IMG/VR virus record: IMGVR_UViG_3300032240_000659
Coordinates: 1-64,000 of that record
Strand: one strand, 5' to 3'
DNA length: 64,000 nt
Source of the DNA: a virus
Part shown: positions 1 through 49,403 of the stretch, in pieces
How positions within the stretch are numbered: position 1 is the stretch's first letter
Layout: each line of letters opens with the position of its first letter
Position numbers and translations under genes: made by a program
The notes under the pieces: model-generated
Databases searched by the model: none
Told to the model about the DNA's origin: nothing
The model's input: only the letters and a program-made list of their open reading frames with translations

Positions 1-684
1 CTTAGTTGCCCATGCTTGATCTGCTGGACTCATGGCTGCATATATTGCAGCCTGTTTAGGATCATTAGCATACGGATTTGGTGCCGCCGCTGGTGCCGCT
101 GGTGCTGCCGCTGGTGCTGCCGCTGGTGCATTCGCAACAGCCGTTTGTTTGCTATTATCCCAAGTAGCGTTTGCATTTGGAGCAGTTGTTTGTCCGCCTG
201 TTGCCTTAGTACCGCCCCATGTTGGATCAAAAGCATGAGCACCTGCTTCATCGTCGGTGTTCATAGATGTTTGCGGAGCTGCCGCCGGTGCCGCCGGTGC
301 AGTAGCTGGCCCTTTTTCAGCGGCATTAAGATCAGCGGCTACTGCTTTTTCTGCATCAGTTTGTGTCGTTACATTAGGAAATTGTGCTTGAGCCGCTTGA
401 GTTGCAGGGCCCATAATACCATCAGCTTTAATCTTTGCACCAGCCGCAATCAATTTGTCTTGTAGTGCTTTTACATTAGGATCTGGTTGGGCTTTTGGTC
501 GGACTGGCGCTGGCTTAGCGCCTTGTCCTGCTACTGGAGCAGCTGGTTTTGCAACAGCAGTTGGGGAAGCTGCCGGTGCTGATGTTGTAGGATTTCCCAT
601 AGCATCGTAGCCGCCGTCTTCAATTAATTTTTCTTTTAAACGAAGTACATAGGCTTTTAGTTGTGATTCTGTAATCTTTTTCAT
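1..684 (-). CDS. Partial virion-associated protein with peptidoglycan-binding-like motif
   Basis: Open from the ATG at 684 to the window edge (228 codons, no stop), so the C-terminus is missing. The N-terminus (MKKITESQLKAYVLRLKEKL) is a charged helix. An Ala/Pro-rich linker follows. Around residues 68-103 lies a segment with the spacing of a PG_binding_1 domain: VKALQDKLIAAGAKIKADG, then IMGPAT and a final Phe. A second Ala/Pro-rich stretch has repeated APAA units. A GGAAAA ribosome site lies before the ATG, and the 756-aa gene stops 2 nt upstream, so the two are probably co-translated. A role in cell-wall contact is inferred from the motif only. Confidence 0.6.
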   Translation of the reverse strand, partial: MKKITESQLKAYVLRLKEKLIEDGGYDAMGNPTTSAPAASPTAVAKPAAPVAGQGAKPAPVRPKAQPDPNVKALQDKLIAAGAKIKADGIMGPATQAAQAQFPNVTTQTDAEKAVAADLNAAEKGPATAPAAPAAAPQTSMNTDDEAGAHAFDPTWGGTKATGGQTTAPNANATWDNSKQTAVANAPAAAPAAAPAAPAAAPNPYANDPKQAAIYAAMSPADQAWATK

Positions 685-685
685 A

Positions 686-2956
686 TTATTTTCCAAAGTT
701 AATTTTTTCTAATAACATTTTCATGCTGTCTTTTGCAGACGATTCTGACATTTTATTAGATATAGCATGGGCATGTGAACCAAAGTCTGGAACTTGGATT
801 TGTTCTTGTTCCATATGATCATGTCCTGGAACACCTGCTAATTTCATGATGTGCATGTGTTCTTGACTAGACGGATCCATCTTATCAATCATCGCAATAA
901 CTTGATGCACATCTTGTTCTGATGCATTAGGGAATTCGCCGTCCTTAAATCCTTTAATGATTTTTGTTTTAGCGCGAGTTCCGCCAATTGTAAAATTCTT
1001 TTGTTCTTTATTCCAGAAGCCTGAAATATATTTTGTCATTTGATCAATACCACTTTCGTTGCTACTATCTTCAGGTTCATCAAACCCACATTCCATTGGG
1101 GTCATTCCACATTCTTCAATAGCATCGTGCAATGTCATATGTTTTCCACCTAATGTAATAGGTGTGTCTAACTTTGCACCTGCTTTTTTTGCAGATTGAA
1201 TAGCTTTCATTAATCCTTGATGTGCTAAGTGTTTAGCTTGGCTGCTTCCGCCATGTCTTGCACCACTTTTATCAGTTACTGTACCTGAACTCTTTTTATA
1301 AGGTCCGTCAAACGGAACATCATCACTATTTTCAGCAACAGGTGCTGGCGGTTGCTGTTCTGGTGCAGCCGGTAGCGCCGCTTGTGGTGCTTCAGGTGCC
1401 GGTACTGGCGGTGCTTCAGGTGCGGGAGCCGGTACTGGCGGCATTTCTTGCTCACCTTCGCCCCCAAACTCTAACTGGCTAGCAACTTCTGGATCTTGTT
1501 GTAAAATAAATTGTTGTATTAATGGACGAACATCTAAATCTGCATCAATGTCACGTAAACTTAATAAAAATTCTGGATCATCAATCAAACCTTTTAGGCT
1601 ACCAACAGCATTGACGCCGTCTGGGCCACCTTTTAGCTCTTGATTCATAATTTTGTTTAATTTCTGTATAGCAACATTTCTTGCATCTTTGTTTGGACTA
1701 AAAATCTCGTCTTTGTCTTCACTAACAATGCTATCCATAAAACTTTCAAACTGATCTTCAGGGTCTAAAATAGCATCGTGCTTATAACGATCATTTGAGT
1801 CTTTTCTTTCCCAGTTTTTACCACCGTCGTCGTAGTCAGTCTTAGTATGTTTAATACCGTGTTTTGTTTTTTCAACTTTGCCGCCACGATGTGTAGTACC
1901 AGTTTCTTTATCACCGTCAAATATTTCATCTAATAAGTCGTCAACACCTACTTCTAATACTGGCAATTCTGATTCGTCAACAAACTTGGCAATATAAGGA
2001 AATACTGATTTTAATTCTTCATTAAATGTACGAATAGTTAAACGATCAATTAAATTGTTAACTAGTTCTTCAGGAAGAACTTGTTCTTCTGTAGCAGTAT
2101 ATGACTCTGCAAATGTTTTATAATATGCTTCTCTTTGTAAATTAGTTACTTCTTTTTTAATTTCTTCAATACGTTCTAACACACGACCTGTAACAGAACT
2201 CATTGCTTCGCTGAGTTGTTCTTGACGGCCAACATAATTTTTAAATTTACGTAAACCTGCTAATTCTTCTGATAGTCCAGTAATATGTTGTCCAATAGCA
2301 TCGTACGGGTTACCGCCAGCCTTAACATGTTCTGCTAGAGCACGAGCACCGTTAATATGTTTAAACGGATATCGGAAACGTTCTCCTACAGAATTTTCAA
2401 CATAAATGTTTTCAATGTACAAAGTACGCCCTGCTGGGATATCTGTATTAATTGGCTGGCTATGTTTAATAATTAAACGTGCTTCACCTAAGTCTTGGTA
2501 GCTAATCCTATTAGTACCGTAAAATTTACTTTCCATAACTGGCTGCGTTGTTGGCATAACTGGTAGTTCCTTACGCTTTGCTATAAAGCTATAATCTCTT
2601 TTATCTAGACCACTCTTACCAGTGTTTTCAATCTTAAAATTTAATAAACGATTTTTAGCAAATTGTTTAAATGACCTTATAAATTTAAATGCACCGTGAT
2701 GATTAGAGTTGTCATTGTCGTTGACTAAATCACCGCTAACTTGTACAACAACACCGTCGTCTTGATCTAAATTAATAGCGATTGTTCCTAACGGTTCGCC
2801 ATCTTCTTCGTATTCAAATTCGAAAAAACGAGCACGAGGAATATCTTGTTTCTTGCTTAAAACTTCTCCGTGTTCGTCCCCAATTTTAATGTTAGGGAAT
2901 CGATTCTGTATCTTTCCATACAGATCTAAAGCAATTTTGTCTAAATTAGCGTCCAT
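686..2956 (-). CDS. Large protein of unknown function, probably virion-associated
   Basis: 756 aa; I do not recognise the family with certainty. The N-terminal third is a mixed globular region (FEFEYEEDGEPLGTIAINL). The middle is charged and helical. A Pro/Ala/Glu-rich linker occupies about residues 505-545 (PVPAPAPEAPPVPAPEAPQ). A C-terminal part rich in His, Met and Lys contains EECGMTPMECGF. The EECGM motif recurs in the 256-aa protein two genes away. The gene starts 10 nt beyond the terminase stop. There is no Shine-Dalgarno sequence; instead GATAAATA ends 4 nt before the ATG. Its place beside gp17 and its late-type promoter suggest a structural or internal virion protein. Confidence 0.75.
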   Translation of the reverse strand: MDANLDKIALDLYGKIQNRFPNIKIGDEHGEVLSKKQDIPRARFFEFEYEEDGEPLGTIAINLDQDDGVVVQVSGDLVNDNDNSNHHGAFKFIRSFKQFAKNRLLNFKIENTGKSGLDKRDYSFIAKRKELPVMPTTQPVMESKFYGTNRISYQDLGEARLIIKHSQPINTDIPAGRTLYIENIYVENSVGERFRYPFKHINGARALAEHVKAGGNPYDAIGQHITGLSEELAGLRKFKNYVGRQEQLSEAMSSVTGRVLERIEEIKKEVTNLQREAYYKTFAESYTATEEQVLPEELVNNLIDRLTIRTFNEELKSVFPYIAKFVDESELPVLEVGVDDLLDEIFDGDKETGTTHRGGKVEKTKHGIKHTKTDYDDGGKNWERKDSNDRYKHDAILDPEDQFESFMDSIVSEDKDEIFSPNKDARNVAIQKLNKIMNQELKGGPDGVNAVGSLKGLIDDPEFLLSLRDIDADLDVRPLIQQFILQQDPEVASQLEFGGEGEQEMPPVPAPAPEAPPVPAPEAPQAALPAAPEQQPPAPVAENSDDVPFDGPYKKSSGTVTDKSGARHGGSSQAKHLAHQGLMKAIQSAKKAGAKLDTPITLGGKHMTLHDAIEECGMTPMECGFDEPEDSSNESGIDQMTKYISGFWNKEQKNFTIGGTRAKTKIIKGFKDGEFPNASEQDVHQVIAMIDKMDPSSQEHMHIMKLAGVPGHDHMEQEQIQVPDFGSHAHAISNKMSESSAKDSMKMLLEKINFGK

Positions 2957-12374: not shown

Positions 12375-12405
12375 ATTGTGTTCTCCATGATTACATGTTC
12401 TATTG

Positions 12406-12413
12406 TATTTAGT
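12406..12413 (-). promoter_or_regulatory. Candidate late promoter ACTAAATA before gp18
   Basis: ACTAAATA reads on the minus strand, 31 bases ahead of the gp18 ATG, leaving a short leader with a GGAGAA site. It has two mismatches to TATAAATA, so support is moderate. Confidence 0.4.
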
Positions 12414-12465
12414 GGAATTTTGGTTTTTGTACCAATAATACCGCATGGAAAAGGGAAGAAAAAGG

Positions 12466-17890: not shown

Positions 17891-20800
17891 TTATCCTTGT
17901 GCCTCTGTCCACGAAATACGAGCTTTAACCGTTGCAGTGTTTACACTTAAATTAGTTGCAAATACTACAAGCAAATCAGGGCCGTCTGGGTAACCATTAT
18001 TACCGCCTAAAATACTGTTACCTAAATCACGAATAATACTAATATCTTGGTTTGTAATGGCTGCACGACCGTTACCGTCATCAGCATAGAACGAGTACAT
18101 ATTATCGCCGGCTGTTGGTGCAGGGGTCGTACCTTTTACACTATGATCTAAGTATTGACTAATACTACCGTTACCTACTGAGACCCAATTTGATGTTGTT
18201 GTAAACAGTGTGCTTTCACTATTAATTTTAATACTAATGCTTAGTGCGTAACTGGTTACAATACCAACGCTTTTTAATGTAATAGCAGACCTATTGATCA
18301 AATTTCTAATTCCAAATTCTCGGCCAATACCATTATCCACCGTAGGGGCTAATCTAATGCTAATTAATGGAACTGTTGAGCCAGAGCCGATTGTTATGTT
18401 ATTTGTCATTTGGGATGTAAACAAATATGATTTATCTTCATCAAACCTACCATCCATAATAGCCGAAACGCCCCAATGGCTTAATGCAGGGGCACAGTTT
18501 TGATTAAAACTTTGAACTGAATCTCCTACGCTTGCACTAGCATTAGATGATAACCCGTATTCGTTGCGTAGATCAATAGTAAAGTTTGTATTGGCGCCAC
18601 TGATTGTTCCTTTTGTGTAGCGAATTACTTCACTGTTGATAATAGCTCTACCTTTTTTTACAAATTGATCTGCATCAGTAGTGAGCATAGTAAAACTAGT
18701 ACCACTAGTTGACAGCGAGCTAGTTAACACACCTAACTTAGATTTAGTATTAATTTCAAATCTTCCTGGTAAGTTACCAGAGCGCATATATGCTTCTGTA
18801 TTAATGTTATTTTGCGGGGCTTGATGAATATAGATAATGCTACCGTCAAGACTTCTCATACCCCATCGAATACGTCCTGCACCATACCACGAGTAATCAA
18901 GAAATACCATCTGCATTTTAGTTCTATCAAACACAAATCCGCTTGGACCAGTGCCATCAATTTTATCTAAGTTAAAGTTACTTTGTATTACTCGAGTGTC
19001 AACTGTTTTTTGGATTTTTAAGCCGGTTTCTGTGTTTCCTCTGTAATCTGGCTGAACGGCCAACGAGGTATTTGAAAATATATTGGTAACTAGATAACTA
19101 CATCCTTTGATAACAACATAGTTTCCGGCAGCAAGCTGGGTTGCCCATTTAGTATTTGTACCTGTAACTGTTGCTGAGTTATTTGTTACAGCCGCTGTTC
19201 CGCTTAAAATTAATGTAGACGATCTTTTTACTACTGCTAGATCAGTGCCATCGTGCTCAAAGAAAATTCCGTTTTGATCGTCATACAACCCATCACGTAC
19301 TACCGCATCAGTCCATGATACCAGTGTAATTTTTTGCTGGCCGCCTGGAAACAAATCAGTAATACTTGGTGAAACTTTAATAGTAAATGTTTTATCATTA
19401 GTAATACTCTGTACATAATATAAACCGTTATAGTTGAGACCAGTCGATACAGTAAATCCACTTAATAAAATATATGCGCCAACTCGGTATGTATCCGGCT
19501 GAGCAAAACCATTGACCTGATCAGTTGTGATGTTAAGATCAAAATATGGATAACTTGAAGCATTATATACATTGGTCAATACAACATAAGTTGCAACATC
19601 ATACGTTGGAGCAAATAATATACCAGTACTAAATTGAATACCTTTACCAGATTGATAACGGAAGTACTTACGTGTTTGTCGAATAATTTGGCAGTTTGGT
19701 GTTGACGAACCTGGATTAATTTGTACACCACCGCTTTGAAATCTATGAAATCCAATACCTGTTGGACGGACATAAATCTTTGTAGTACCTGTACTAACAG
19801 TGGTGGCACTACCATAATTAGATAAAGCATTTCCGGTATATGTAACAACTGTACTACTTAGAATATTTTTGACTGAAAAAGATCCAATGTATACTTGTGC
19901 AGACTGGCTCGCATCAACCACGTAAATATATTGTCCAGGAAATAGGCCATGATATGTACTAAACGTAATTTGTAAATCTGTAGTGCCTACTACAGTAGTA
20001 ATGCTAGTTAACGGAATCTCGGCACTGGTAAAAAAGCCACCAGTATAAATTGTAGTATAATTTGAAACATAATTTGTTCCAGATACTAATGATACGCTCA
20101 TAGTAGCTACAAACGACAATGAACTTGGGACTGATTTAATTAAATAAGAACCATCTAAATATAAGCTGGCAGTTTCTTTAAGAATAATAGGTTGTCCAAT
20201 GTAAAATGCCGTACTTGGAGTTGTGTTAACTGTTACTGTTACGTCTCGACTTGCGCCAGCTGATGTAATAATTTGATATGCTGAGTTACTGACTGGAAAA
20301 CTACTGTTCTGTGCAACAAATGTTGAGTTCACTCCGTCACCAACTGCCGGTGCATTAACACCATATGTACTACCAGCCGTTGGTATATGTACTTTAATAG
20401 TATTTGAGCCGCTTGTAAACCATACTTCGTAAATATAAGTTACACCAGTTGCACAGCAGTTGTTACCTTCAGCTCGAATAATAAAAGTGCTGCCAACTGT
20501 TCCAGTGTAATATTGGTACATAGTTCTATCACCTGGCATAATCATCAAAGAAGGGAACGGTGGATTTGCACCAGTAAGTCCTGAATATGCGTTTGAACCT
20601 CCGCCAAATGTTATATAACCATTAGATCCTAAATAGACAGTAGAATAATTAACACCTAAAAACGGTACAGTAAACGGTAATGAGATAGGATAGTTAGCAT
20701 CGTCAGCATAACTAGCACCGTAATTTAAAATAAGTGTCAGACCGGTAGTACCGTTGGCTGCGTAGGTAATAGTTGATATAGCAGCCGAAGCACCTCCAGG

Positions 20801-21772
20801 AACCGGCAAAATACTAGTGATCTGGCTGGCGGTAAATGATGGTTCATTTGCCTTACTATAAACTGATGGAATATTATTAACTAGTGACACGGTTTCCCAT
20901 TTAGTACCTTGTAGGCTATATTCAAAGTCAGTATCGATCATAGCTTGAGGCTCTGATACACGTTGTTTTTCTACAGGATCTTGATAGGTAGGATGAGGTT
21001 TAACAAACTCAGTGTCTTTATTAACAAATATCTGTAACTTGTCTTGAGAAGACATTCCAGTTGTATCTGTATACAGTGCATATCGAGTTTGTTGTGTAGG
21101 AAATTGGTAAATGGAATAACCAGCTTTTGTACTGTCAGCAAAATTATATACAATAGTGCTTTTAGTAACGTTTGTGATTAACAACAAATCTTTATAATTA
21201 ATATTTCCGTCAATATAGACATATCCGTATGATCCACTAGCAGTTGTAATTGACGGAGATGTACCTGTATTAATATATGAAGTAAGATTACCGGCCAAGC
21301 CGGTAATTACTGTGCTGGCGCCAGCCTCAGCGGCTGATCCTGATGCATTTTGTGTAACTATTGTTTGATATGCAGGACTAGCGGCAGTACCTGTAAAAAT
21401 ATAATTGTTAATTAAGTCTCTAATATAGTTATGTGTTGAAATTTCAGGACTTCTGTCACCGTCAATTTGGGGGATTCCGTTAGACCAATAAAAACTACCC
21501 ATTTGCACGGTTTCAACATTACCGCCAAATCGTAAATCATTAATGTAAGCATCAATAACATAACCAACATCTCGCTCACATTTAAAACTGTTATAGGTAA
21601 AATTAATAAAAGGAGAAACGTTGTTAGCAACCTGATAAGCAATGTAGGCAGTTGCCATTACTTGTATATATCGTTTGTTATTAGATAGTCGTGTAACAGC
21701 ATTAGGATATGCGTTGTATGTTTGATTATACCCTGGTGTAAATGAGTAATTGTATATCTGTTGTTTTGCCAT
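17891..21772 (-). CDS. Large fibre-like virion protein, paralog of the 969-aa protein at 36527-39436
   Basis: 1293 aa. It shares ordered segments with the 969-aa protein: LLLITNVTKSTIVYNF, DPVEKQRVSEPQAMIDTDFE, YFRYQSGKGIQFSTG, LDYSWYGAGRIRWGMRSLDG, NTEAYMRSGNL, LSHWGVSAIMDGRFDEDKS and RDLGNSILGG. The first 100 residues are unique and helical. Its middle part (about residues 300-700) holds inserted beta modules, some of the shared 'VGQ/PGQ' type. No catalytic motif is visible. I infer a tail fibre or surface appendage. A GCTAAATA octamer overlaps the upstream stop, 24 nt before the ATG. Confidence 0.85.
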   Translation of the reverse strand: MAKQQIYNYSFTPGYNQTYNAYPNAVTRLSNNKRYIQVMATAYIAYQVANNVSPFINFTYNSFKCERDVGYVIDAYINDLRFGGNVETVQMGSFYWSNGIPQIDGDRSPEISTHNYIRDLINNYIFTGTAASPAYQTIVTQNASGSAAEAGASTVITGLAGNLTSYINTGTSPSITTASGSYGYVYIDGNINYKDLLLITNVTKSTIVYNFADSTKAGYSIYQFPTQQTRYALYTDTTGMSSQDKLQIFVNKDTEFVKPHPTYQDPVEKQRVSEPQAMIDTDFEYSLQGTKWETVSLVNNIPSVYSKANEPSFTASQITSILPVPGGASAAISTITYAANGTTGLTLILNYGASYADDANYPISLPFTVPFLGVNYSTVYLGSNGYITFGGGSNAYSGLTGANPPFPSLMIMPGDRTMYQYYTGTVGSTFIIRAEGNNCCATGVTYIYEVWFTSGSNTIKVHIPTAGSTYGVNAPAVGDGVNSTFVAQNSSFPVSNSAYQIITSAGASRDVTVTVNTTPSTAFYIGQPIILKETASLYLDGSYLIKSVPSSLSFVATMSVSLVSGTNYVSNYTTIYTGGFFTSAEIPLTSITTVVGTTDLQITFSTYHGLFPGQYIYVVDASQSAQVYIGSFSVKNILSSTVVTYTGNALSNYGSATTVSTGTTKIYVRPTGIGFHRFQSGGVQINPGSSTPNCQIIRQTRKYFRYQSGKGIQFSTGILFAPTYDVATYVVLTNVYNASSYPYFDLNITTDQVNGFAQPDTYRVGAYILLSGFTVSTGLNYNGLYYVQSITNDKTFTIKVSPSITDLFPGGQQKITLVSWTDAVVRDGLYDDQNGIFFEHDGTDLAVVKRSSTLILSGTAAVTNNSATVTGTNTKWATQLAAGNYVVIKGCSYLVTNIFSNTSLAVQPDYRGNTETGLKIQKTVDTRVIQSNFNLDKIDGTGPSGFVFDRTKMQMVFLDYSWYGAGRIRWGMRSLDGSIIYIHQAPQNNINTEAYMRSGNLPGRFEINTKSKLGVLTSSLSTSGTSFTMLTTDADQFVKKGRAIINSEVIRYTKGTISGANTNFTIDLRNEYGLSSNASASVGDSVQSFNQNCAPALSHWGVSAIMDGRFDEDKSYLFTSQMTNNITIGSGSTVPLISIRLAPTVDNGIGREFGIRNLINRSAITLKSVGIVTSYALSISIKINSESTLFTTTSNWVSVGNGSISQYLDHSVKGTTPAPTAGDNMYSFYADDGNGRAAITNQDISIIRDLGNSILGGNNGYPDGPDLLVVFATNLSVNTATVKARISWTEAQG

Positions 21773-22731: not shown

Positions 22732-24900
22732 TTAATATTGAATAGTTACAGATCCATTAGTACCAGCAACACCTCCTGCACTACCTCCTGCGCTGCCGCC
22801 GCCTTGTGAACTAAGAACAAGAGGTGTTGTTGCACCACCGCGTGGATTGGTTTGATCTTTTAGAAAATTCCAGCCACCTTGCCCAGAAGCGTTTGCATTA
22901 GTTATGTTATTTTGGCCGCCTTGGCCGCCAATATATCCGCCACCGCCGCCACCGCCGGGGTTTGTGCGTTGAATTGTGCCGCCTGTACCACCTCCGCCGC
23001 CGCCACCGCCGCCACCGAAGCCGCCTCTGGAACCAACACCAGTTCCGTCGTTAATACCATTACCAGCGGTCCCGTTACCGCCTAGACCAAAGCTAGTGCC
23101 ATATCCACCACCGCCGCCGGCGCCGCCTGCATCTAAACTTGCAGAACCGGTCCATGTTGTTCCACCATTGCCTCCACCAGAGATATCGCCAGAGGCACCA
23201 TTTAAAATTGAGTTAGAAAAAATTGTAGATGAATTACCTGTTCCTCCCGGACCTCCACTAGCGGGTGTGGAACTATAGACTACAGTGTGACCTCCTGATG
23301 TTGTTGCCACACCGGTGCCAACTGCTGGAATGTTTACGGAGCTTCCACCTCCACCACCTGCAGATACAATGTGAGTACTTCCACTTATTAGTCCGCTAAA
23401 ACCACCGCCACCACCGCCATACCTAGTAGTAACAGTTCCACCTTTGGCTGCGCCGCCGCCGCCTACGATAACACTATAAACAGTGCCCGGTGCAGTTGCC
23501 ACCCACCCAACAATTTGGCCTCCTAAGCCGCCGGTTAGGGGGGTTGTGTCGCCGCCTCCGCCAGATCCGCCACCTCCGTTTGCAGTTACCCTTATCCAAT
23601 ATATGCCGGCAGGTACGGTAAATGATTGTGCTGCGCCAGTAAACGAAAAAGGAACCGAGGTTGTTATTGTTTGAGGATCTGCAGGAATAGTTATTACTGT
23701 TAGATTAAAACTGTTGCTACTTGATTGCCCGGATTGATCTTGAACTGTTATTGTAACACTTGTGCTACTTAGTCCCGCTGTTGGAGCTAATGTTAATAGC
23801 CCGGTGGTCGTATTAAGGTTTGCGCCGCAAGATATAGGCAACGCAGATATACTATACGTGTACGTTCCAAACCCTCCGCTAGGTATAACTGGAAAATATT
23901 GATTATATGTATTTTGACTAAGTGTAATATTAGAGGCAATATTTAATACCGTAGTCAACGGTAAAGCCGCTACTGTTAAATTAAGTGTTTTGCTACTTGT
24001 TTGTCCTATAGCATCTGTAGCAGTTATGGTGTAAGTTGTTACACTGGACAATGCCGATGGTGTGCCAGTAATAACTCCAGTAGAAACGTTCATTGAAGTA
24101 TTGGTCGGCAATGTTGGAGAAATAGAATATGTTACGTTTCTATATCCGCCGGTATAAGATATAGGCGTTACAGTTGAAAATTGATTAGCATATATAGTAG
24201 TGCTAGATACTAATTGTGTAGTTGTCAACGAAGAAAAACTAACAGTTTCAAATGTTCTAGTATAAAATGCTCTATAATTTTGCACAATTTCAACATCTGT
24301 TAAAGCTCTGTTGTAAATTCTAACTGCTCGAATGTTGCCGACAAAAGAACCAAGGCTTGGACTGTTTCCTATTCTAAGCGGATAAGCAGTTCCATTGCTA
24401 ATATTACCAGTTCCGGCAGTAGTTTGAACGCCGTTAACCCAAATAGTACTATTTCCGCTAGAAACCGTACACACAACGTGATACCAGTTATTTACCGGGT
24501 AAGTTGCGGCATCTTGTATTGTTCCGCCCGGAGTTTCAAATCTAAATGTCCCACTACTAAAATAATGCAATGCAACTTGCCAATTAGAACTGTCAGCGGC
24601 TATGGACATAATTGATTTATACCCACCGTTAGAAGTGGGGTAAACCCACGTTTCTAAAGTAAAATTAGAATTATATAAATTAGTACTTAAAATTCCGTAG
24701 TTAATTAACGAAGATCCATCAAATGCTACAGCACCGGTGGTTGTATTAAACGTAAGGGCTCCGGTAATATTTCCAGTGTTATTTCGACCGTCGTTTGTAT
24801 TCCATGTCTTTTGTCCTAGATCAAAAGAATTATATTTAAAAGAATCAATATTAAAAATTAATCCAGAGATTACTAAATTAGGCCCTGTTATCCCGCTCAT
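22732..24900 (-). CDS. Adhesin with LamG, Ig-like and glycine-rich tip domains
   Basis: 722 aa. Residues about 5-215 form a LamG/concanavalin-like domain (FTLETWVYPTSNGGYKSIMS, NNWYHVVCTVSSGNSTIWVN, IRAVRIYNRALTDVEIVQNY). Residues about 230-410 hold two putative Ig (He_PIG-like) repeats (TYSISPTLPTNTSMNVSTGV and TYTITATDAIGQTSSKTLNL). From about 425 to the end comes a Gly-rich region with many GGGGG and GG-x-GG runs broken by short polar loops. This resembles the polyglycine-helix host-binding tip of phage S16 gp38-type adhesins. I infer a receptor-binding role. Start and the previous stop overlap as ATGA, coupling it to the LamG gene upstream. Confidence 0.85.
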   Translation of the reverse strand: MSGITGPNLVISGLIFNIDSFKYNSFDLGQKTWNTNDGRNNTGNITGALTFNTTTGAVAFDGSSLINYGILSTNLYNSNFTLETWVYPTSNGGYKSIMSIAADSSNWQVALHYFSSGTFRFETPGGTIQDAATYPVNNWYHVVCTVSSGNSTIWVNGVQTTAGTGNISNGTAYPLRIGNSPSLGSFVGNIRAVRIYNRALTDVEIVQNYRAFYTRTFETVSFSSLTTTQLVSSTTIYANQFSTVTPISYTGGYRNVTYSISPTLPTNTSMNVSTGVITGTPSALSSVTTYTITATDAIGQTSSKTLNLTVAALPLTTVLNIASNITLSQNTYNQYFPVIPSGGFGTYTYSISALPISCGANLNTTTGLLTLAPTAGLSSTSVTITVQDQSGQSSSNSFNLTVITIPADPQTITTSVPFSFTGAAQSFTVPAGIYWIRVTANGGGGSGGGGDTTPLTGGLGGQIVGWVATAPGTVYSVIVGGGGAAKGGTVTTRYGGGGGGFSGLISGSTHIVSAGGGGGSSVNIPAVGTGVATTSGGHTVVYSSTPASGGPGGTGNSSTIFSNSILNGASGDISGGGNGGTTWTGSASLDAGGAGGGGGYGTSFGLGGNGTAGNGINDGTGVGSRGGFGGGGGGGGGGTGGTIQRTNPGGGGGGGYIGGQGGQNNITNANASGQGGWNFLKDQTNPRGGATTPLVLSSQGGGSAGGSAGGVAGTNGSVTIQY

Positions 24901-26096
24901 AGACCGTATCTTCCTTTGTATGTATTATATATTTGTAATATTTCTACGGTACTTAATGCACTGGTGAATACACTAATATTAGATATTGACCCGTTGATAT
25001 AAGAACCGTCTCTAGGGTTATAGCCTATGTACACAAGAGAACCGTCACCAAAATTATAATTTGAAGGCAGTGTTATTGATAAAGACTGTACATTGTCTTT
25101 ATATAAAATTAACGAAGTACCATTTCTAACCACTACTAAATGATGCCATGCTAGATCATTAACATCAACTCCTGATAAGTTATCTACAATACCATTATTA
25201 TAATAGGTAAAATTATAGTTAGTCGATGAATGAGATATTTTAAATGCCCAGGCGCCGTTAATTGGGCTTCCGGTAAATCCTTGACTTAGTAGTGCAGAAT
25301 ATGCTGTTTGACTTGTTGAGTTAGCTTTCCACCAGATGCTAATAGTCCAGTTAGTTGTACCTAATTTAGCAACTGGCACATTATATCCGTTAACTAAGGC
25401 AGCACCACCAGTGACATTGCCGTTAAATGAAAGAAGGCCGCTAGTTACATTTGGTGTTACTTGGTAATATAAAATAGCATTGGTGGTAGAATCATTACTA
25501 ATTAAATTTTTCCAAGTTGTTCCATTTAAATTAGCTTGAGGATTAAAAGTAGTTACAGCATTGGCACGTTCAACTTGTAGGCCATCAAACCAAATACTTG
25601 CACCGTTGGTTGTGTTACCTAATCTAGCTTGAACCCAGGCGGTTGACGCACCGCTAAACGTTGCAGTAAAACTAAAACGTTGCCAAAAAGTAGTAACTGT
25701 AACTCCGCTACTAGGCGCTTCTAAATAGTTGCCCGAAGCATTTGCACTAAACAAATAAGGTAATGCTTGTGCTGTTGTACTTGCTTTGGCCCAATAACTC
25801 ATAGTCCATGTTTGGCCGTTGGCTGCTGGAGCTAGGTTCCATGTTAAAGTATTAAACGTTGCAATATATGCATCGGTACCTGTTGATGTTAGTTTCAAAG
25901 GTATACCACCGGCAGGGCTACGATCTATAGTTGTGTCTCTACTGATTGATCCAGTATTAACACTGGCTGTTCCGCACCATGCATATAGATCAAGAGGATT
26001 TGGAATTACATTAGGACTATAACTTTTAGGATTAGCCGCGTCATAGCACATCACTAGTGTTGACGTTGGGATCAAAGGATTATATGCAACTGTCAT
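24897..26096 (-). CDS. Two-domain carbohydrate-binding-type adhesin with LamG
   Basis: 399 aa. The N-terminus LVMCYDAANPKSYSPN is shared with the 217-aa neighbour. Residues about 45-185 look like a CBM4/9-type jelly roll (SYWAKASTTAQALPYLFSA, FWQRFSFTATFSGASTAWVQ, SIWFDGLQVERANAVTTFNP). Residues about 195-399 form a LamG domain (WTISIWWKANSTSQ, LAWHHLVVVRNGTSLILYKD, ISNISVFTSALSTVEILQIY). It ends KGRYGL, like its neighbour. Sugar binding on the host surface is inferred from the fold. Both ends overlap the neighbouring genes by ATGA. Confidence 0.85.
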   Translation of the reverse strand: MTVAYNPLIPTSTLVMCYDAANPKSYSPNVIPNPLDLYAWCGTASVNTGSISRDTTIDRSPAGGIPLKLTSTGTDAYIATFNTLTWNLAPAANGQTWTMSYWAKASTTAQALPYLFSANASGNYLEAPSSGVTVTTFWQRFSFTATFSGASTAWVQARLGNTTNGASIWFDGLQVERANAVTTFNPQANLNGTTWKNLISNDSTTNAILYYQVTPNVTSGLLSFNGNVTGGAALVNGYNVPVAKLGTTNWTISIWWKANSTSQTAYSALLSQGFTGSPINGAWAFKISHSSTNYNFTYYNNGIVDNLSGVDVNDLAWHHLVVVRNGTSLILYKDNVQSLSITLPSNYNFGDGSLVYIGYNPRDGSYINGSISNISVFTSALSTVEILQIYNTYKGRYGL

Positions 26097-26746
26097 AATC
26101 CATATCTCCCTTTTGTTGCAATATAATTTTGTAATATTTCTGCTTGGGTCAGTGCTCGATTATAAATTTGCACTATTGATATTCTTCCGTTAAATGTTTC
26201 ACTGCTTGGGGATACACAGCCAATATATAAATTTCCAGTACCGGGGGCTGAAGGAGCGAATGCAAATGCATTTGATGCTAATAAAGTATTGTTAACATAT
26301 GCTTTAAGTCCGGTACTATCTCCTGTGACAGCGTTATAAGTCCATGTATTTAGGCTAACACTTGAATTAGGAGTAGATATTGTGTTGCCTGACACATAAA
26401 ACCATAAATTGTTGTATTGTTCATGTCGAATTCTATAACCAGAATTATAATTTTTTGAAACAATATTACCTAGTCCGCTAGTATCGACAGGATACGTCCA
26501 GGCTATTATTGTAATTCCATTCGTCAGTGCTAGTACACTAGGATTTCCAAAGTCAATATAACTTGAAATGCCGTTAAATGTCATGTATCCATTAGAGTAT
26601 GACACATTATTCATAGTGCCAACTGCTTGTTTACCGCTTATGTCGTATGCTGTTGTGCCAGACCCGATATAACTTTTAGGGTTGGCTGCATCAAAGTAGA
26701 ACACTAACCCATAAGTTACTGATTGAGCACCGTAGTTGACAGCCAT
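26093..26746 (-). CDS. Single-domain LamG adhesin
   Basis: 217 aa, essentially one LamG domain: LVFYFDAANPKSY at the start, MTFNGISSYIDFGNPS, GITIIAWTYPVD, LNTWTYNAVTGDSTGLKAYV and RISIVQIYNRALTQAEILQN, ending TKGRYGL. Together with the 399-aa gene it forms a tandem pair of related cassettes. Its start overlaps the stop of the 1027-aa fibre gene (TAATG) after a GAGG site, and its own stop overlaps the next start. Stoichiometric coupling to the fibre is likely. Sugar or receptor binding is inferred. Confidence 0.85.
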   Translation of the reverse strand: MAVNYGAQSVTYGLVFYFDAANPKSYIGSGTTAYDISGKQAVGTMNNVSYSNGYMTFNGISSYIDFGNPSVLALTNGITIIAWTYPVDTSGLGNIVSKNYNSGYRIRHEQYNNLWFYVSGNTISTPNSSVSLNTWTYNAVTGDSTGLKAYVNNTLLASNAFAFAPSAPGTGNLYIGCVSPSSETFNGRISIVQIYNRALTQAEILQNYIATKGRYGL

Positions 26747-36500: not shown

Positions 36501-36527
36501 ATAGAAGGGAGGAGTCCTCCCTTCTAT
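36501..36527 (-). terminator. Perfect 12-bp hairpin after the 969-aa gene
   Basis: ATAGAAGGGAGG and its exact complement are separated by a 3-base loop. The hairpin starts at the stop codon of the 969-aa gene. The following minus-strand bases (ATTATTT) are only moderately T-rich, so it could be a terminator or an mRNA-processing or protective hairpin between the two genes. Confidence 0.65.
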
Positions 36528-39436
36528 TAAGCCTGTGCTTCTGTCCAGCTTAAACGACTGTTAATTGTGTTTGTTGCTTGGTTAGTAATGTTAGTACAGC
36601 ATACAGTAATAACGTCTGGACCATCTGGGTAAATGTTAGCAGGAGTTGTACTACCGTTTGCTGTAGTACCACCACCTAAAATACTATTACCAATGTCTCG
36701 AACAATTGACAAGTCTTGTGTAACTGCGCCAGAATTACTAGTAAAGAATCCAAAAATAGCCTCACCACCAGACACTGTCTGGCCGCTGGTATGGAAAATG
36801 TATTGCGCTAGACTTGATCCGCCCACGTTAGCCCATGTTCCGCCACTGATACGAGCGTTTAAGAAAATTTCAATCTTAAACGCAGTACCGCTGGTAAAAA
36901 CGTCCATCTGACGTAAGGTTAACTGCATACGGTTGATAATTTCACGCTGTCCAATCAATCCTGATAGACCATTATCAATACTTGGTGCAATACGGATACT
37001 TAAAATAGGTTGACGAGTATTTTGAGCCAAGTTAATTAGCGCTGTATTGTTACCAGCGTTGAACACTAGAGATTTATCATCGTCATAACGTCCGTCCATG
37101 ATAACTGAACTACCCCAGTGGCTTAACTGTCCAGCACTTTGTGGACTGTACAATTCTGCTTTGATAGGAGCAGTAGCACTATAGGTAAATGTCTGTGCTG
37201 ATCCTTGTCCGCCTGTTTGAGCACGAGAACCAATAGTCAGTGTGGTTAGTGTTTTAGAAGTATATGTAATATATTCAATTACAGCGCCTGTGGCTGCTGA
37301 TGCTGTTAATACTACTGTACCGCTTGCTGGCCAGCCAGTTGTATCATTTACACTGATTGTTGCACCAGTTGTAGCCGCACTGGACAAGGTTGCTGTCAAG
37401 TAAGTGTAATAAGGCAAGTGGTTACATTCGTAACGTCCTACCAAGTTACCTGAACGCATGTATGCTTCAGTGTTGACGTTATTGTTTGGAATTCTATGGC
37501 AGTAAATAACTTCGCCGCGGTTGTTCTTGAATCCAAAACGGATAGCACCAGCACCGTACCATGTGTAGTCCATGTAGAACATTTGCATCTTACTTAGGTC
37601 AAGTGTCATTCTGCTGTGTCCGGTACCGTCCATCTTGTCAATATTCCAAGTGTTAGTTGCACCAACTAGGCTCAGCCCGGGATAACGAGTATCAATGGTC
37701 TTACTGATAACACAGTTTACAGTTGAAACACCTTTGTATTCTGGATAAACATACATTTGTGTATCGCTAGTAATCTGTTGTACAAAGTAAGTCATACCTC
37801 GAAGAACAATAGAATCGCCTGGCTTTAACTGGCTTGAAAACTTGGTATTTGTACCTACCACACTTTGACTTCCGTTGGTTGCCTGAGCAAAGCCGCTGAT
37901 CTGAGCAGTACTTGAACGTTTAACTGCATAAATTGTCTGCCCATCATATTCAAAAAAGAATCCGTTTTGACTATCAAACATACCAAGTCTACTGGTAGCA
38001 CCGTACCAGCTGTATGGGTTAGCGTTTACGTTACCCGTAGCAGGGCTGGCACTTGGTGTGCTACCAGCAGTATAGGTAAATGTTGTTGGTGTTGCGGCAG
38101 TTACAATAGTAAAGTTACCGTTGTAGGCTGTTTCATTAGCACCTGATATGGTAACAACTGCACCTACTAACTGACCGTGTGGATATTTTGTAGTTACCGT
38201 TACAGTTGTACCACTACTAGTAATTGTATCTGGGTTTAAACTTGGTTTTAAAATACTACCAGTTGAGAATTGAATAGCTTTACCAGACTGATAACGGAAT
38301 TGGCGTCGTGTCTGACGAATAATTTGATATCCGTGATATGGGCTAACGTTACCAAACTGTACACCACCGTCAAATGGTCTGTGATTAATATAACCTAATG
38401 GACGTGGGTATAACGTTGCTGTTGCACCAGCTGCCGCTGTAATAGTACCAGTAGCTGTACAGGCAAATGTAAATGTTGAGTTACTTGGAGTTGTAGCAAC
38501 TTTCCAGCTAGAGTTCAGTGTGCCAGTGGCACCAGTAGTACCAACTATATAAAAAGCGTCACCTACACGTAGTCCGTGATCGCCAGTTGTGGTAACTGTA
38601 CCAACTGAACCAGATAAACTGATCGCGGCGCCAGCACTGGCACTAACTGGAATGCCAGCACCTGTAAAGAAATAGGCAATAAAAACATAAGTTTTGTTAG
38701 TATCAAACAAGCTGGCTGCTGGAACATTGCCTGCTGGGATCGTATAGGTAAAGTTAGTGTTACCGCTAACCGATTCAACTAACCACCATCCGCCTGCGTT
38801 AGCATCGTCTAGTGTACCTTGAATAAAGATTGGAGAGCCTACAGTAATACCTACAGTGTTGTTAATAGCAACTGTAACAACTTGTCCAGTAGCTGTAACG
38901 TTAGTAATTTGATAGCTACCACTACTTGCTGTTCCACCGTTGCCTACGAACGCAGGAGTGCTAGACAAATTACTTAAACCCGTTGTGAAATCATAAAATG
39001 CACTAGGACGATTATGGCATAAGATTAAACTTTCCCACTTAGTTGGTTGAACACCATATTCAAAGTCAGTGTCAATTAATGCTTGTGGTGTTGAGACACG
39101 CAATTTATCAACTGGGTCGCGCATTGTTTCTGCGGGAACAATTTCTGTATAAGTTTCTTCAACTATAATACTTAATACATCAGTTGAATTCATTGATGTT
39201 GTATTATAGTTAAGTGTAATACTAGTAGTTTCTACAGGAGTACCCGTAGTACTAACTAAACTGTTAGTGTAAGCAGTCGCAGTAAGCGAAGTATCACTAA
39301 AATTATAAATTACCGTATTTGTAGTTACGTTGGTAATTAAAAGAAGCTGTTCTCTTCTTATGTTTTTTCCGTTGACTACAACTTGTCGTGAAGACGGGGT
39401 AAATGTGTAGCTTTCTAAGATTGCATGTTTTGCCAT
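36527..39436 (-). CDS. Fibre-like virion protein, paralog of the 1293-aa protein
   Basis: 969 aa. It opens MAKHAILESYTFTPSSRQVV and shares the ordered core with the 1293-aa protein: LLLITNVTTNTVIYNF, DPVDKLRVSTPQALIDTDFE, FRYQSGKAIQFSTGS, FEYDGQTIYAVKRSST, MDYTWYGAGAIRFGFKNNRG, NTEAYMRSGNLVGRYECNHL, LSHWGSSVIMDGRYDDDKSL and VRDIGNSILGG. Between core blocks sit four or so beta modules (for example VGSPIFIQGTLDDA and VGDAFYIVGTTGATG). An AAAGGAAA ribosome site precedes the ATG. The paralogs flank a block of fibres 18-36 kb, which suggests duplication followed by insertion of fibre genes. Role unproven; virion appendage is likely. Confidence 0.85.
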   Translation of the reverse strand: MAKHAILESYTFTPSSRQVVVNGKNIRREQLLLITNVTTNTVIYNFSDTSLTATAYTNSLVSTTGTPVETTSITLNYNTTSMNSTDVLSIIVEETYTEIVPAETMRDPVDKLRVSTPQALIDTDFEYGVQPTKWESLILCHNRPSAFYDFTTGLSNLSSTPAFVGNGGTASSGSYQITNVTATGQVVTVAINNTVGITVGSPIFIQGTLDDANAGGWWLVESVSGNTNFTYTIPAGNVPAASLFDTNKTYVFIAYFFTGAGIPVSASAGAAISLSGSVGTVTTTGDHGLRVGDAFYIVGTTGATGTLNSSWKVATTPSNSTFTFACTATGTITAAAGATATLYPRPLGYINHRPFDGGVQFGNVSPYHGYQIIRQTRRQFRYQSGKAIQFSTGSILKPSLNPDTITSSGTTVTVTTKYPHGQLVGAVVTISGANETAYNGNFTIVTAATPTTFTYTAGSTPSASPATGNVNANPYSWYGATSRLGMFDSQNGFFFEYDGQTIYAVKRSSTAQISGFAQATNGSQSVVGTNTKFSSQLKPGDSIVLRGMTYFVQQITSDTQMYVYPEYKGVSTVNCVISKTIDTRYPGLSLVGATNTWNIDKMDGTGHSRMTLDLSKMQMFYMDYTWYGAGAIRFGFKNNRGEVIYCHRIPNNNVNTEAYMRSGNLVGRYECNHLPYYTYLTATLSSAATTGATISVNDTTGWPASGTVVLTASAATGAVIEYITYTSKTLTTLTIGSRAQTGGQGSAQTFTYSATAPIKAELYSPQSAGQLSHWGSSVIMDGRYDDDKSLVFNAGNNTALINLAQNTRQPILSIRIAPSIDNGLSGLIGQREIINRMQLTLRQMDVFTSGTAFKIEIFLNARISGGTWANVGGSSLAQYIFHTSGQTVSGGEAIFGFFTSNSGAVTQDLSIVRDIGNSILGGGTTANGSTTPANIYPDGPDVITVCCTNITNQATNTINSRLSWTEAQA

Positions 39437-44699: not shown

Positions 44700-47600
44700 T
44701 TATCCTAAATATAATGATGTTATAGACTGGCCGCTAGTCAATTTAATTCTAACCCAAATTTCGTTGTTAGTTGCTGACGAAGAACTATAAACACCAAAAT
44801 CTACTGTAAATGTTTGTGCTGTGTATTGTTGTCCCGCTACAAATGCAGTTCCACTTACACAACCGTTTAATAATGTTGAGTTGGTGCCTAATGATAACCA
44901 GCCGTTAAGACTCGACTTACCAGTACCGTATACCGATCCGTTACTTGATCCAGGTAGCCCTGCCCAGAACCCAGCAATACCAGTTGCGCCAGTTGTGAGT
45001 GTTATTGGAAATCCGTTAATAGCACTTCGAACAAATCTAAATGTAAAATACTGTGCGTTACCGACTGTTCTGCCACTTAGGTTAGGGCCTGCTGGTAAGT
45101 AACCGGTTGAATAGTTTGTAACATCATGTTTTAAACTGTTAATACCTGTGCCAGTACCTACTACCGTTGCATCTGTTGCTAGTAATGTGCCTGATTGGCT
45201 ATTAAATGCGGCAGCACCACCTGCAAATGCAGGAGTGTCAGTATTTGCAGTTCCTGTATCTGGGTTAACAACTCTTAACCCACCAGTAGTGCTGCCGCCA
45301 ACTGCGGCATTAAAGAAAATATTTGTTTCATCTAAGAACGTTGTTGAACTTGTTGTTCCTGTTTTATATAATATAATTGCATTTAGTGCAGGTAATGCGC
45401 TAGCCGCTGTTGTGTAACTATTATCAGCAGTAAATGCAGGAACTGTTGTTGTAGTTGTCCATGCACCAAATCCAGTAGTAATACTATGCGTAAAAGTGGT
45501 TGCGTTAGGACCTGATCCAGCTGTTACTGTTGTAGTTGTTGGTAATGTTGTATAACCTAAGTTGGTATAAGTTTTATTACCGGCACTGGTCCACGGCCCA
45601 ATTGCGGCAGTGGTTAAAATGCTTGTTGCTAAACTAGAATGCCCTGTTTGTCCTGCGTTCCATGTTACAACAAAACCAGAGTTGTATGTTGTTGAACTAT
45701 TGTAATGAGGAATTGTGCTAGAATAAGTTAAATTACTTGTACCTAACGCAAAAGTTTGTGTACCAAATGTTGGCGCAACTGTAGCACTATTATCGTAATA
45801 CCAAACACCTGTGTTTGTTGTGCTAGCTCCAATAGTTGTTGAGCCAGCGGCGCCATGTGTAATTTGTACAGTGTTCCAACCTGCAGGTACTGTGGTACCA
45901 GTAACAGTTACATCAATAGTTTCATAAAATCCCGGTGTACCAACTGGGGAAGCAACGTTATTAGTAACAACTAGAGACGTATTATTTGCTGTATAGGTTC
46001 CGTTATCACTAGTTGATGTAAATGTTAGTGTTCCAGTTGTTGTACTAGTAGCATTAAATGCAGAACCAACTGAACCGGTAGTAGTATTATATGTTGATAA
46101 AGTTAATGTTGTTGCGGTTACTGCGGTAATATAATAAGCAGTAGAGTTAGACAGTCCGCCAAATGCTCCACTTGCACCAGTTGTAATCAAATAGCCAACA
46201 ACTAATACGCCTGCGGCAGGCGGCGTAAATGTCACAACGTTACTGTTTAATGTTGTTCCAGTAATTGTTGCTGTAATAGTTTGAGTAGTATTACCGTAAG
46301 TTAATGTTTTAGTTGTGGCTGCGGTATTATTTCTTTTAACAGTAACTAGACCTTGTGTACCTGGGCCTGTTGCTGTAATTGAACTTGTAGATAATGTGTT
46401 TGCACGGATAACATAGACAATAGTACCAGCCGCTGGAGTTGTTACGTTGGTTGCATCATTATTAACTTGTGAACCGGCGGCAGTAAACATAATGCGTTGC
46501 GTTAATCCATTCACAAAAAATGATTGACCTCCTGGAAATGCTGTAGGTGCCGCTGGTGTTAGTAGACTTAGTGTTTGATTTAACAGTCCAATACTATCTG
46601 AAACTGAAGTGCTGATTGACAAAGAAACTCCCCCTGTTAACGCTCCTTGTGCTGGTGTTCCTACAGAAATACCAGTAGCACTACTTGTTGTCAGTAATCC
46701 CGTAACTGTTGTAGGTGCATTAACAGTAACAGCTTCACCGGTTGCTGGATCAATATTAATTGGACCAACAGTAGAACCAATGGTATTACCAGAAATAATA
46801 ATATTATTTGCAGTAATTCCGGTTGGACCAACTGTGGTAATACTAGTACCATTATTAAATGTAATACTGTTTAGTGATGATACGTTTAGTGCGCCAGCGG
46901 CAAAATTAACAGCTCCTGTTTCGTAATTAACTGTAAATAAACTACCAACGCGGTAATTACCGCTTTGGTCTACAGAATTATAATATACTTTACCGCTATT
47001 AACTTGTATAACTTCGTTAGCTTGAACTACTGCACTCTTATCGTTTGTTAAATCAGCACCTGTTCCAATATAAGCAAAATTGTGCGCCATTAACTGAATA
47101 GAAACACCATAGCCGTCTGCTTTAACACCTTGGTTACCATAGATGTTAGCGCCAGAAATAGCTCTCATTTCTGCACCAAATTCACCAGTATCATATCTAG
47201 TAATACCAGTAGCAGTTCCGCCACTAGTTACTCTAATATCTTGAACTGTAACACCGTCGTCTACCGTAGTTGTTGCGTTATTTACGCCATCAAAGTGTAG
47301 CAATGCTACTGTTGTTGAATCACCAACATATGCGCTAGTTGCAGGAGTGAATGTAGTTGTGTAACGAGCAACACCTTTGCTAATTCTAAATTCGTCAATG
47401 TATCCAGTGTAACCAGCAGTTGAATCAAATCTACATCCAATGGTAACTGTTCCTTGAATATAGTTGTTTGTATCTGTATATGTTTGTGTTTGAACAGTTC
47501 CTCCAACAAACATTCTTGTAACTCCGCTTGCTCTAGCAATAGCAACATGTGTCCAAGTGTTTAAGCTAATAGCACTGTCACTTTGAATCTGTTGTGCGCC

Positions 47601-49403
47601 GTTGGTTGAAAATCTCAAAAAGTTTGTAGTTGGGCTTAGGTAAAATGTAGGAACAAGTTGAGGATCACTAGTTCTAAAGTCAAGAATTATTTGATTACTA
47701 GAAGATGTGGCAGTATTATAAATCCACATGTCAAATTCAAAATCACCAGTACCAAATGCAAAATCAGGACTGGTATTAATTGTAACATAGTCGCCTGTTC
47801 CGTCAAAGAATGCGCTAGTTGCGCCAAATTTAGCAGTAACACCGTTGCTTAACTTGGCGTTGCCGCCCATGTTTACAACTTTATTATCTCTATTAGCATT
47901 TGTTAAAAGGCCAGTTACTTTACCAGTAAGTGTAATTTTGCTACCGTTGATAGCCGCAATAGTTCCAGCACCTAATGCAGTAGGATAAACAGAATAAAGT
48001 GTTAATGTATCACCAACGTTGTAAGTTCCAGTCTTACCTGTTAGTGTCACGTATGTTTGCCCAACACCACCACGCCCAGTAGAACCTACGACACCTTCAA
48101 AGTGTAAATCAGCAAAGTAAGTAAAACAAGTTAACCATTCAACTCTAGCACCGTTAGTCATAATCAATGCACGACTATTTGGTACAATAAAAGTTGCTTC
48201 GTTAAACAACATTGCAGCCTCTAAACTTCCGCCGCTGGCAATAGTACCTTTAGTCACTAACGAACCATCTACATATGCGCCACGGCCAGCGTCTGCACTA
48301 GCAAAGCCATACGGATCGGTTGTTGTATTTGCTCCACTACCTTTGTTTAAAACTGTTACACGTTCAATATACGGGCTTCTACTAGATATCTGTGTTCCGG
48401 TAGCATTAATTGCTGTGCTAAGTGTAAATGTTAAGTCGTTTGTTCCATCAACTCCGCCTAAATATGCTCCGCTGATGGTAATAGTATTTGTAAGAGCATA
48501 GTTAGCTCCTGCATTAGAACCTAAAGCAACACTAATTGTTGTGCTGTATGTTGTACCGGTTGTTTTAGTAATAGTAAAACTTGCACCTGCTCCTGTTCCA
48601 CTTGTAGATTTTTGTGGAATATTAGTAAATGTGCCGCCGGCAGTTACACCCGTACCTGTTATAGATGTGTATGTTGTACTAGATGATAATGAATTACCTG
48701 TAAATTTAAATGCATATCCTGTGCCGTTACCTGCACTATAAAACATGTCTTTAATTGTTAAATCGCTGATTGTGGTTTCACCGTTGACTAAAAAACAATC
48801 TTTTGTGTTTGTGCCAGTTGTTGGATAAACAATTGTTTCACGCAACCCTGCTCCTCGAACACTAACACCTTTAGGCACAACTAAAGGAAATACTTCTTGA
48901 TACAATCCAGCTAAAATATAAACAGTATCACCAGATTGTGCTTGACTAAGAGCATACGCAATAGTCCTTAACGAATTCATTTCGCTATGGCCAGCATTGG
49001 TATCAACACCTACGTTATCTGAAACATACCATACACTTGTATCGCCAGAACCAAATACAACACCGTTGATAATAACTTTGCCGGTTCCGGTTGTAGTTAA
49101 TGTTAAATTACTATTTGTTGGTGAAGTTAAAGCAAGAGCACCGCTTGTTGAGCTTAAAGTGTTGCCAGTTAATTGTAAATTACCAGCATTAATTGTAGTA
49201 CCAAGTAGCGTTGTAGCACGAGCAGTTCCTGTAATATCTAAAGGATAAGCAGGGTTCTGATTCTTAACGCCGATGAAGTGGTTACTACGATCAGTAGTAT
49301 CGCTTACTAACAAATACAACAGATCTGTCTCAAAAGCTAAATTATTCCCGTTGCGGGATAAATTATCCTTTAAGAGCGGACCCGATATTCTTCCAACAGA
49401 CAT
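44700..49403 (-). CDS. Giant beta-helix appendage protein with internal LamG domain
   Basis: 1567 aa. The N-terminus MSVGRISGPLLKDNLSRNGN leads into a fibre motif. From about residue 127 a pectate-lyase-like right-handed beta-helix begins (RTIAYALSQAQSGDTVYILA, GLYQEVFPLVVPKGVSVRGA, GLRETIVYP). At about 515-705 a full LamG domain intrudes (AFFDGTGDYVTINTSPDFAF, NTWTHVAIARASGVTRMFVG, GYIDEFRISKGVARYTTTF). The helix pattern then resumes (GAEMRAISGANIYGNQGVKA). The last 850 residues are Thr/Ser-rich beta modules. No catalytic residues can be assigned. It has a GAGGAG site and a long leader with a CATAAATA octamer. Host-surface binding or cleavage is inference. Confidence 0.87.
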   Translation of the reverse strand: MSVGRISGPLLKDNLSRNGNNLAFETDLLYLLVSDTTDRSNHFIGVKNQNPAYPLDITGTARATTLLGTTINAGNLQLTGNTLSSTSGALALTSPTNSNLTLTTTGTGKVIINGVVFGSGDTSVWYVSDNVGVDTNAGHSEMNSLRTIAYALSQAQSGDTVYILAGLYQEVFPLVVPKGVSVRGAGLRETIVYPTTGTNTKDCFLVNGETTISDLTIKDMFYSAGNGTGYAFKFTGNSLSSSTTYTSITGTGVTAGGTFTNIPQKSTSGTGAGASFTITKTTGTTYSTTISVALGSNAGANYALTNTITISGAYLGGVDGTNDLTFTLSTAINATGTQISSRSPYIERVTVLNKGSGANTTTDPYGFASADAGRGAYVDGSLVTKGTIASGGSLEAAMLFNEATFIVPNSRALIMTNGARVEWLTCFTYFADLHFEGVVGSTGRGGVGQTYVTLTGKTGTYNVGDTLTLYSVYPTALGAGTIAAINGSKITLTGKVTGLLTNANRDNKVVNMGGNAKLSNGVTAKFGATSAFFDGTGDYVTINTSPDFAFGTGDFEFDMWIYNTATSSSNQIILDFRTSDPQLVPTFYLSPTTNFLRFSTNGAQQIQSDSAISLNTWTHVAIARASGVTRMFVGGTVQTQTYTDTNNYIQGTVTIGCRFDSTAGYTGYIDEFRISKGVARYTTTFTPATSAYVGDSTTVALLHFDGVNNATTTVDDGVTVQDIRVTSGGTATGITRYDTGEFGAEMRAISGANIYGNQGVKADGYGVSIQLMAHNFAYIGTGADLTNDKSAVVQANEVIQVNSGKVYYNSVDQSGNYRVGSLFTVNYETGAVNFAAGALNVSSLNSITFNNGTSITTVGPTGITANNIIISGNTIGSTVGPINIDPATGEAVTVNAPTTVTGLLTTSSATGISVGTPAQGALTGGVSLSISTSVSDSIGLLNQTLSLLTPAAPTAFPGGQSFFVNGLTQRIMFTAAGSQVNNDATNVTTPAAGTIVYVIRANTLSTSSITATGPGTQGLVTVKRNNTAATTKTLTYGNTTQTITATITGTTLNSNVVTFTPPAAGVLVVGYLITTGASGAFGGLSNSTAYYITAVTATTLTLSTYNTTTGSVGSAFNATSTTTGTLTFTSTSDNGTYTANNTSLVVTNNVASPVGTPGFYETIDVTVTGTTVPAGWNTVQITHGAAGSTTIGASTTNTGVWYYDNSATVAPTFGTQTFALGTSNLTYSSTIPHYNSSTTYNSGFVVTWNAGQTGHSSLATSILTTAAIGPWTSAGNKTYTNLGYTTLPTTTTVTAGSGPNATTFTHSITTGFGAWTTTTTVPAFTADNSYTTAASALPALNAIILYKTGTTSSTTFLDETNIFFNAAVGGSTTGGLRVVNPDTGTANTDTPAFAGGAAAFNSQSGTLLATDATVVGTGTGINSLKHDVTNYSTGYLPAGPNLSGRTVGNAQYFTFRFVRSAINGFPITLTTGATGIAGFWAGLPGSSNGSVYGTGKSSLNGWLSLGTNSTLLNGCVSGTAFVAGQQYTAQTFTVDFGVYSSSSATNNEIWVRIKLTSGQSITSLYLG

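Follow-up and report, generated by a model that had tools for sequence, protein, structure and literature searches.

Klebsiella phage depolymerases of the category termed "Class 2, insertion domain" carry one or more antiparallel beta domains that project from the phage beta-helix, and middle and double insertion classes are described among them in the available part of PMC13385381. These proteins resemble the one studied here in their projecting domains, but they are tested capsule depolymerases, and their insertions are not termed LamG in that part of the source. In the GH120 xylosidase TsXylC (3VST), a beta-sandwich domain interrupts a beta-helix as the LamG does here, but the sandwich is Ig-like and the protein is an enzyme (PMC6887791, available part). 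A profile comparison showed sequence similarity between 3VST and our protein in the N-terminal part of the helix. The ectodomain of TMEM2 has a lectin and a small sandwich inserted in its helix, but it is an animal protein and its lectin is of POMGNT1 type (PMC10206443, available part). In jumbo phages, tail fibres and further components of the virion carry Laminin G3 lectin domains, but the available part of PMC7824862 does not describe their insertion into a helix.

The protein is encoded in the window, by which we mean the whole stretch of 64,000 nucleotides analysed (positions 1 to 64,000 of virus record IMGVR_UViG_3300032240_000659, which has 128134 bases). Its gene (44700..49403, minus strand, ATG start) specifies 1567 amino acids and matches PHROG 13163, "baseplate wedge subunit" (E 3e-175), with residues 306-930 aligned to 334-956, a range that spans the LamG and the flanking parts of the helix. 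"Baseplate wedge initiator" proteins of cyanophages ACG-2014f, P-HM1 and P-HM2, and also MED4-213 (PHROG 13163, 1469, 19601, 32294), have the same order of helix and LamG at 38-44% identity, but differ from the window protein in their N- and C-terminal contexts. Judged by these sequences, the LamG-in-helix architecture is not new and is already present in cyanophages ACG-2014f and P-HM1. Our literature search, outside which most subscription journals lay, found no description of a LamG inserted in a cyanophage beta-helix, nor of its presence, absence or exchange, and the available part of PMC8822698 contained nothing relevant on insertions. The structure of T4 gp7 is present in the PDB; its chain was absent among the matches of the profile of our 41-member alignment (E up to 1), of the window protein (E up to 1) and of the P-HM1 "gp7" (E up to 0.1), limits that distant homologues could escape.

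The window phage is unlike the cyanophages in its terminase (54.5% to Pseudomonas PA5oct) and portal (49.6% to Pectobacterium CBB, the first among the matches listed, and 53.2% to Sinorhizobium phage Phosso). Both are nearest to these jumbo myoviruses; the helix thus has cyanophage kin, whereas the packaging genes give no indication of a cyanophage.

Domain organization of the appendage protein

The two ends of the protein are shared with proteins of different content. The N-terminal segment (residues 1-96, 49116..49403; this and all further features of the gene are on the minus strand) is common to other fibre proteins, matching the N-termini of proteins at five other loci (L002-L005 and L007) and separate ORFs of 304-421 aa in L015, L016, L017, L020, L021 and L071. 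The C-terminal region (residues 906-1567, 44703..46688) is common to proteins without the helix. Part of it (1343-1564) is 36.9% identical to a protein of Caulobacter phage Karma, and Caulobacter phage proteins resemble it. Proteins of the five loci named above match the window protein at both ends (residues 1 to about 96, in L002 to 120, and about 900-1566) with 35-61% identity, the C-terminal match alone reaching 59-61%; between these common ends they have no helix match, and the LamG module is absent too. In other relatives, the helix is embedded in chains of up to 3455 residues. By these sequence comparisons, the appendage protein is modular.

The first-pass annotation had placed the start of a pectate-lyase-like helix at about residue 127, close to where the strands of our model begin (about residue 124). 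The first helix stretch (residues 125-240, 48684..49031) was modelled with pLDDT mostly at least 89, and DUF1565 matches it in 14 of 41 relatives (Pfam). The second (residues 339-467, 48003..48389) was delimited by alignment and model. Between them lies an insert absent from the earlier annotation (about residues 241-338, 48390..48683; delimited on an alignment of 26 rows). It occurs in 2 of the 26 rows, only the window and L066 (same contig as L001), and has no confidently predicted fold (pLDDT mostly 34-55). Copies with 50-61% identity occur in other proteins of L060, L062 and L063.

After the second helix stretch comes the slot, which holds two domains. The first, a small beta module next to the LamG (residues 468-513, 47865..48002; model strands 476-486, 489-493 and 510-513), had also gone unmentioned in the earlier annotation. 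The second is the LamG domain (residues 514-718, 47250..47864; Pfam and model). The helix resumes at about residue 722 (DIRVTSGGTATGITRYD), a resumption after the LamG that the earlier annotation had proposed, and this third stretch (residues 722-836, 46896..47240) was defined by alignment, model and fold match.

Position of the LamG domain in the helix

The domain identity of the LamG was clear in Pfam, where PF13385 (Laminin_G_3) matched residues 534-676 with E 6.4e-16 and 59.3 bits against a cut-off of 27.6. We modelled residues 110-920 as a single chain with AlphaFold2 from 41 aligned sequences (mean pLDDT 81.3, pTM 0.69; helix and LamG blocks mostly 85-97). In VIA-align comparisons, the LamG part (about 418..606 in model numbering) superposed on PAPP-A entry 8a7d_C over 178 residues (Z 19.2, 2.3 Å), and 8d8o_B likewise gave Z 19.2. 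This superposition bears out, for the predicted structure, the concanavalin A-like jelly-roll fold of the LamG. A LamG inside the helix at about residues 515-705 had been claimed from the sequence, and both the Pfam match and the modelled fold (514-718) are internal and agree with it.

The flanking helix was compared with solved structures in the same way. The window model aligned with rhamnogalacturonan lyase 5olq_A over 258 residues (Z 20.4, 3.5 Å, model 13..725). A model of a LamG-less relative, L013, made from the same sequences (mean pLDDT 85.5, pTM 0.77), aligned with 5olq_C over 256 residues (Z 20.6, 3.1 Å, model 13..405). Residue 725 of the window model and residue 406 of L013 form one invariant column of the alignment. 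The 5olq helix is thus covered equally with and without the LamG, which fits the prediction for a lateral insert. We note that the structural alignments give first and last residues and counts, from which we infer helix packing. The window model also matches a BFVD model from ACG-2014f (A0A0E3FNL9_2) over 651 columns at 2.4 Å.

Together, the models give good support to one right-handed parallel beta-helix that continues on both sides of the LamG. Structure prediction had been proposed as a check on this arrangement, and in the prediction the LamG is not at a chain end and the helix halves act as one helix. As in the Class 2 insertion-domain definition, an antiparallel beta domain exits and re-enters the modelled helix. 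An artefact or a LamG at the chain end was ruled out by both models and by the relatives with an empty slot described below. The top Foldseek matches, to CBA120 TSP2, had an rmsd of about 20 Å over the whole model and were set aside.

Relatives with and without the LamG domain

Relatives were gathered from viral contig scans, a genome scan, four phage records and the window's own record, giving at least 163 loci; in one contig scan, relatives were ranked with a query that included the LamG, and the best 80 of 413 were retained. Profiles of the helix halves both matched in 146 ORFs. Two weak-scoring ORFs were dropped, leaving 144 ORFs with 94 distinct sequences (window excluded), and slot sizes were taken from the best-scoring stretches of the two profiles. 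Slot size was bimodal among the 94 distinct relatives. The slot measured 46-54 residues in 11, none of which had a LamG, and 254-331 residues in 83, all of which had one; the ratio of 83 to 11 is not a frequency, because the best 80 of 413 were chosen by a LamG-containing query. When Pfam was run on each of the 41 alignment members, 33 had a LamG and eight had an empty slot.

The relatives without a LamG were DSL-LC03 and viral contigs L012-L014, L017-L021, L070 and L074. They have the same helix as the window protein, at 54-58% identity in eight of them, but a slot of the short class, only as large as the small beta module. A search for relatives with an uninterrupted helix had been suggested as a further check, and an empty slot was thus found at the same position. 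Within the large class, a group with slots of 326-331 residues, including P-HM1, has about 65 further residues ahead of the LamG compared with the window protein. The gp7 ORF of L084 (from 5728) is of this P-HM1 type, with an extra piece of about 65 residues before the LamG at slot residues of about 313-430. We also considered other domain families in the slot. Three relatives (L107, L118 and L154) seemed to be LamG-less, but their sequences and an unfiltered search of the slot showed a LamG.

History and variation of the slot

The distribution of the LamG was mapped on a helix tree of 47 rows from which slot columns were left out; this tree was built with a quick method and is unrooted, and DSL-LC03 has a long branch and an uncertain place in it. 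LamG presence needs four changes on the tree, three of them forced by well supported branches. The window falls within a group of 14 rows (support 99) that comprises ten LamG-less and four LamG-bearing members, and these four cluster in the LamG tree (support 90). All 36 slot LamGs form one group in that tree (support 99). Inheritance with several losses would explain this pattern more simply than several independent gains, as far as an unrooted tree, which leaves gain and loss undistinguished, can tell. In the alignment of 26 rows, the small module of LamG-less relatives is a different version, and a loss would therefore have been no clean excision.

The first-pass annotation had described the shaft as otherwise conserved, and mean pairwise identity was indeed 0.50 and 0.51 in the helix halves versus 0.39 in the LamG. 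In 565 of 630 pairs, which are non-independent as they derive from 36 LamG-bearing rows, identity was lower in the LamG than in either helix half. Variability as high as that of the LamG (0.398) was seen in the small module (0.385) and in the beta region that follows the helix (0.384). Hypervariable loops were not seen in the LamG, with mean identity of 0.411 in strands and 0.387 outside them. Equal variability of the module and the region after the helix, and loops hardly more variable than strands, argue against a special role of the LamG. Foreign base composition was not seen either, G+C being 0.389 in the LamG versus 0.36-0.42 elsewhere in the gene.

A putative case of replacement came from two viral contigs, L134 and L107. 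They share 98% and 91% identity in the two helix halves, and 52-53% in the LamG. At the DNA level, most of the first helix half has an identity of 0.99-1.00 and most of the LamG core one of 0.41-0.57, after which the value is again 0.91-0.97. The cores themselves (L134 residues 809-944, ORF from 4513; L107 residues 2327-2459, ORF from 1) are only about 41% identical, and each scores better against other LamGs, with the partner ranking 20th and 28th when repeated loci and the core itself are counted. Among 128 pairs with near-identical helices, this was the only pair with LamG identity below 75%. The sequence pattern in this one contig pair is as expected of recombination, that is, of a putative head swap.

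Putative role of the LamG domain

We think it probable that the LamG is a lateral head on one continued helix, that it binds glycans and that it is exchangeable. Prediction and the empty-slot relatives give good support to a chain that leaves the helix between two coils, folds first into the small beta module and then into the complete LamG, a concanavalin A-like domain, and rejoins the same helix; the LamG is therefore a lateral head. It may sit outside the shaft and bind a host surface glycan, and so add to or tune attachment, and the shaft and C-terminal domain may supply length and fixation, perhaps with a second contact as well. A site for sugar or calcium was not identified in the slot LamG. 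Going by the sequence variation, the head can be lost from the slot or replaced in it, and phages can thus change the head with the shaft unchanged, with a possible effect on host range.

The strongest competing explanation, which we nevertheless regard as unlikely, is that the helix acts as an enzyme on polysaccharides, with the LamG as an accessory carbohydrate-binding or active-site-shaping domain, a role that has been proposed for insertion domains of Klebsiella depolymerases (PMC13385381, available part). Fold comparison ranks lyases, hydrolases and tailspikes highest for the helix, 17 polar helix positions are at least 97% conserved in 41 aligned relatives, and profile matches to 5olq (rhamnogalacturonan lyase, 3.7e-4) and 3vst (xylosidase, 4.8e-4) fall at the N-terminus of the helix. 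However, likeness of fold shows no function, and no enzyme family match spans the whole helix.

A structural spacer, or a site of protein-protein contact in the virion rather than a host-binding head, seems to us still less probable. LamG folds can also mediate protein-protein contacts, and LamG variation that is not focused on loops would suit such a role. An exposed, exchangeable part is the better fit to a LamG that is absent in several lineages and whose core was replaced on a near-unchanged helix. It is very improbable that the LamG only seems inserted, with the helix ending before it and a separate domain following, as alignment ranges, giving end points only, might allow, because LamG-less relatives join the first and last helix half through only 46-54 residues, both models place about 256 residues on one solved helix with the same end points, and 258 residues align where only roughly 245 helix residues precede the slot (poorly predicted insert excluded).

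Beyond the lateral head itself, the slot may be an exchange site across aquatic phages, where phages lose, regain or replace LamG heads of one family through recombination at domain edges on an almost unchanged shaft. We offer this broader reading tentatively and lean slightly against it. The exchangeable slot is the most interesting reading of the locus; cyanophage proteins already have the architecture itself. Descriptions of receptor-binding diversity in phages usually concern fibre tips. With related shafts that have a side head, no head or a different head, the part of a lateral lectin in attachment would become directly testable. If the exchange-site reading is true, a single family offers natural variants with a head, without one and with a swapped one for tests of host choice.

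Other genes of the window and an unusual relative

Three adjacent genes at 22.7-26.7 kb had been reported to carry LamG-type domains, and Pfam found one in each (E 5.3e-26, 3.4e-17 and 9.8e-25). All three are on the minus strand: 22732..24900 (LamG at residues 73-205), 24897..26096 (C-terminal LamG at residues 238-386) and 26093..26746 (LamG at residues 59-204). Close kinship of these LamGs with that of the slot was unsupported; in the LamG tree they lie outside the slot family, on long branches, so they lend it no specific support. In the original proposal of a sugar-binding head on a conserved shaft, the internal LamG and the conserved helix stand, and the neighbouring genes drop out as specific support.

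Elsewhere in the window, two large proteins (17891-21772 and 36527-39436) both match PHROG 5838, "virion structural protein" (E 3.9e-207 and 1.2e-265), and are probably paralogues by sequence. A long tail sheath protein of 1140 aa is encoded at 9024-12446 (PHROG 10581, E 8.8e-224). Among the relatives, the contig that carries L162 (PBPH01000085.1) bears the title of a Euryarchaeota MAG. In the helix tree, L162 is sister to L161, a copy found in a Prochlorococcus genome, and its contig is therefore probably a misbinned phage contig.
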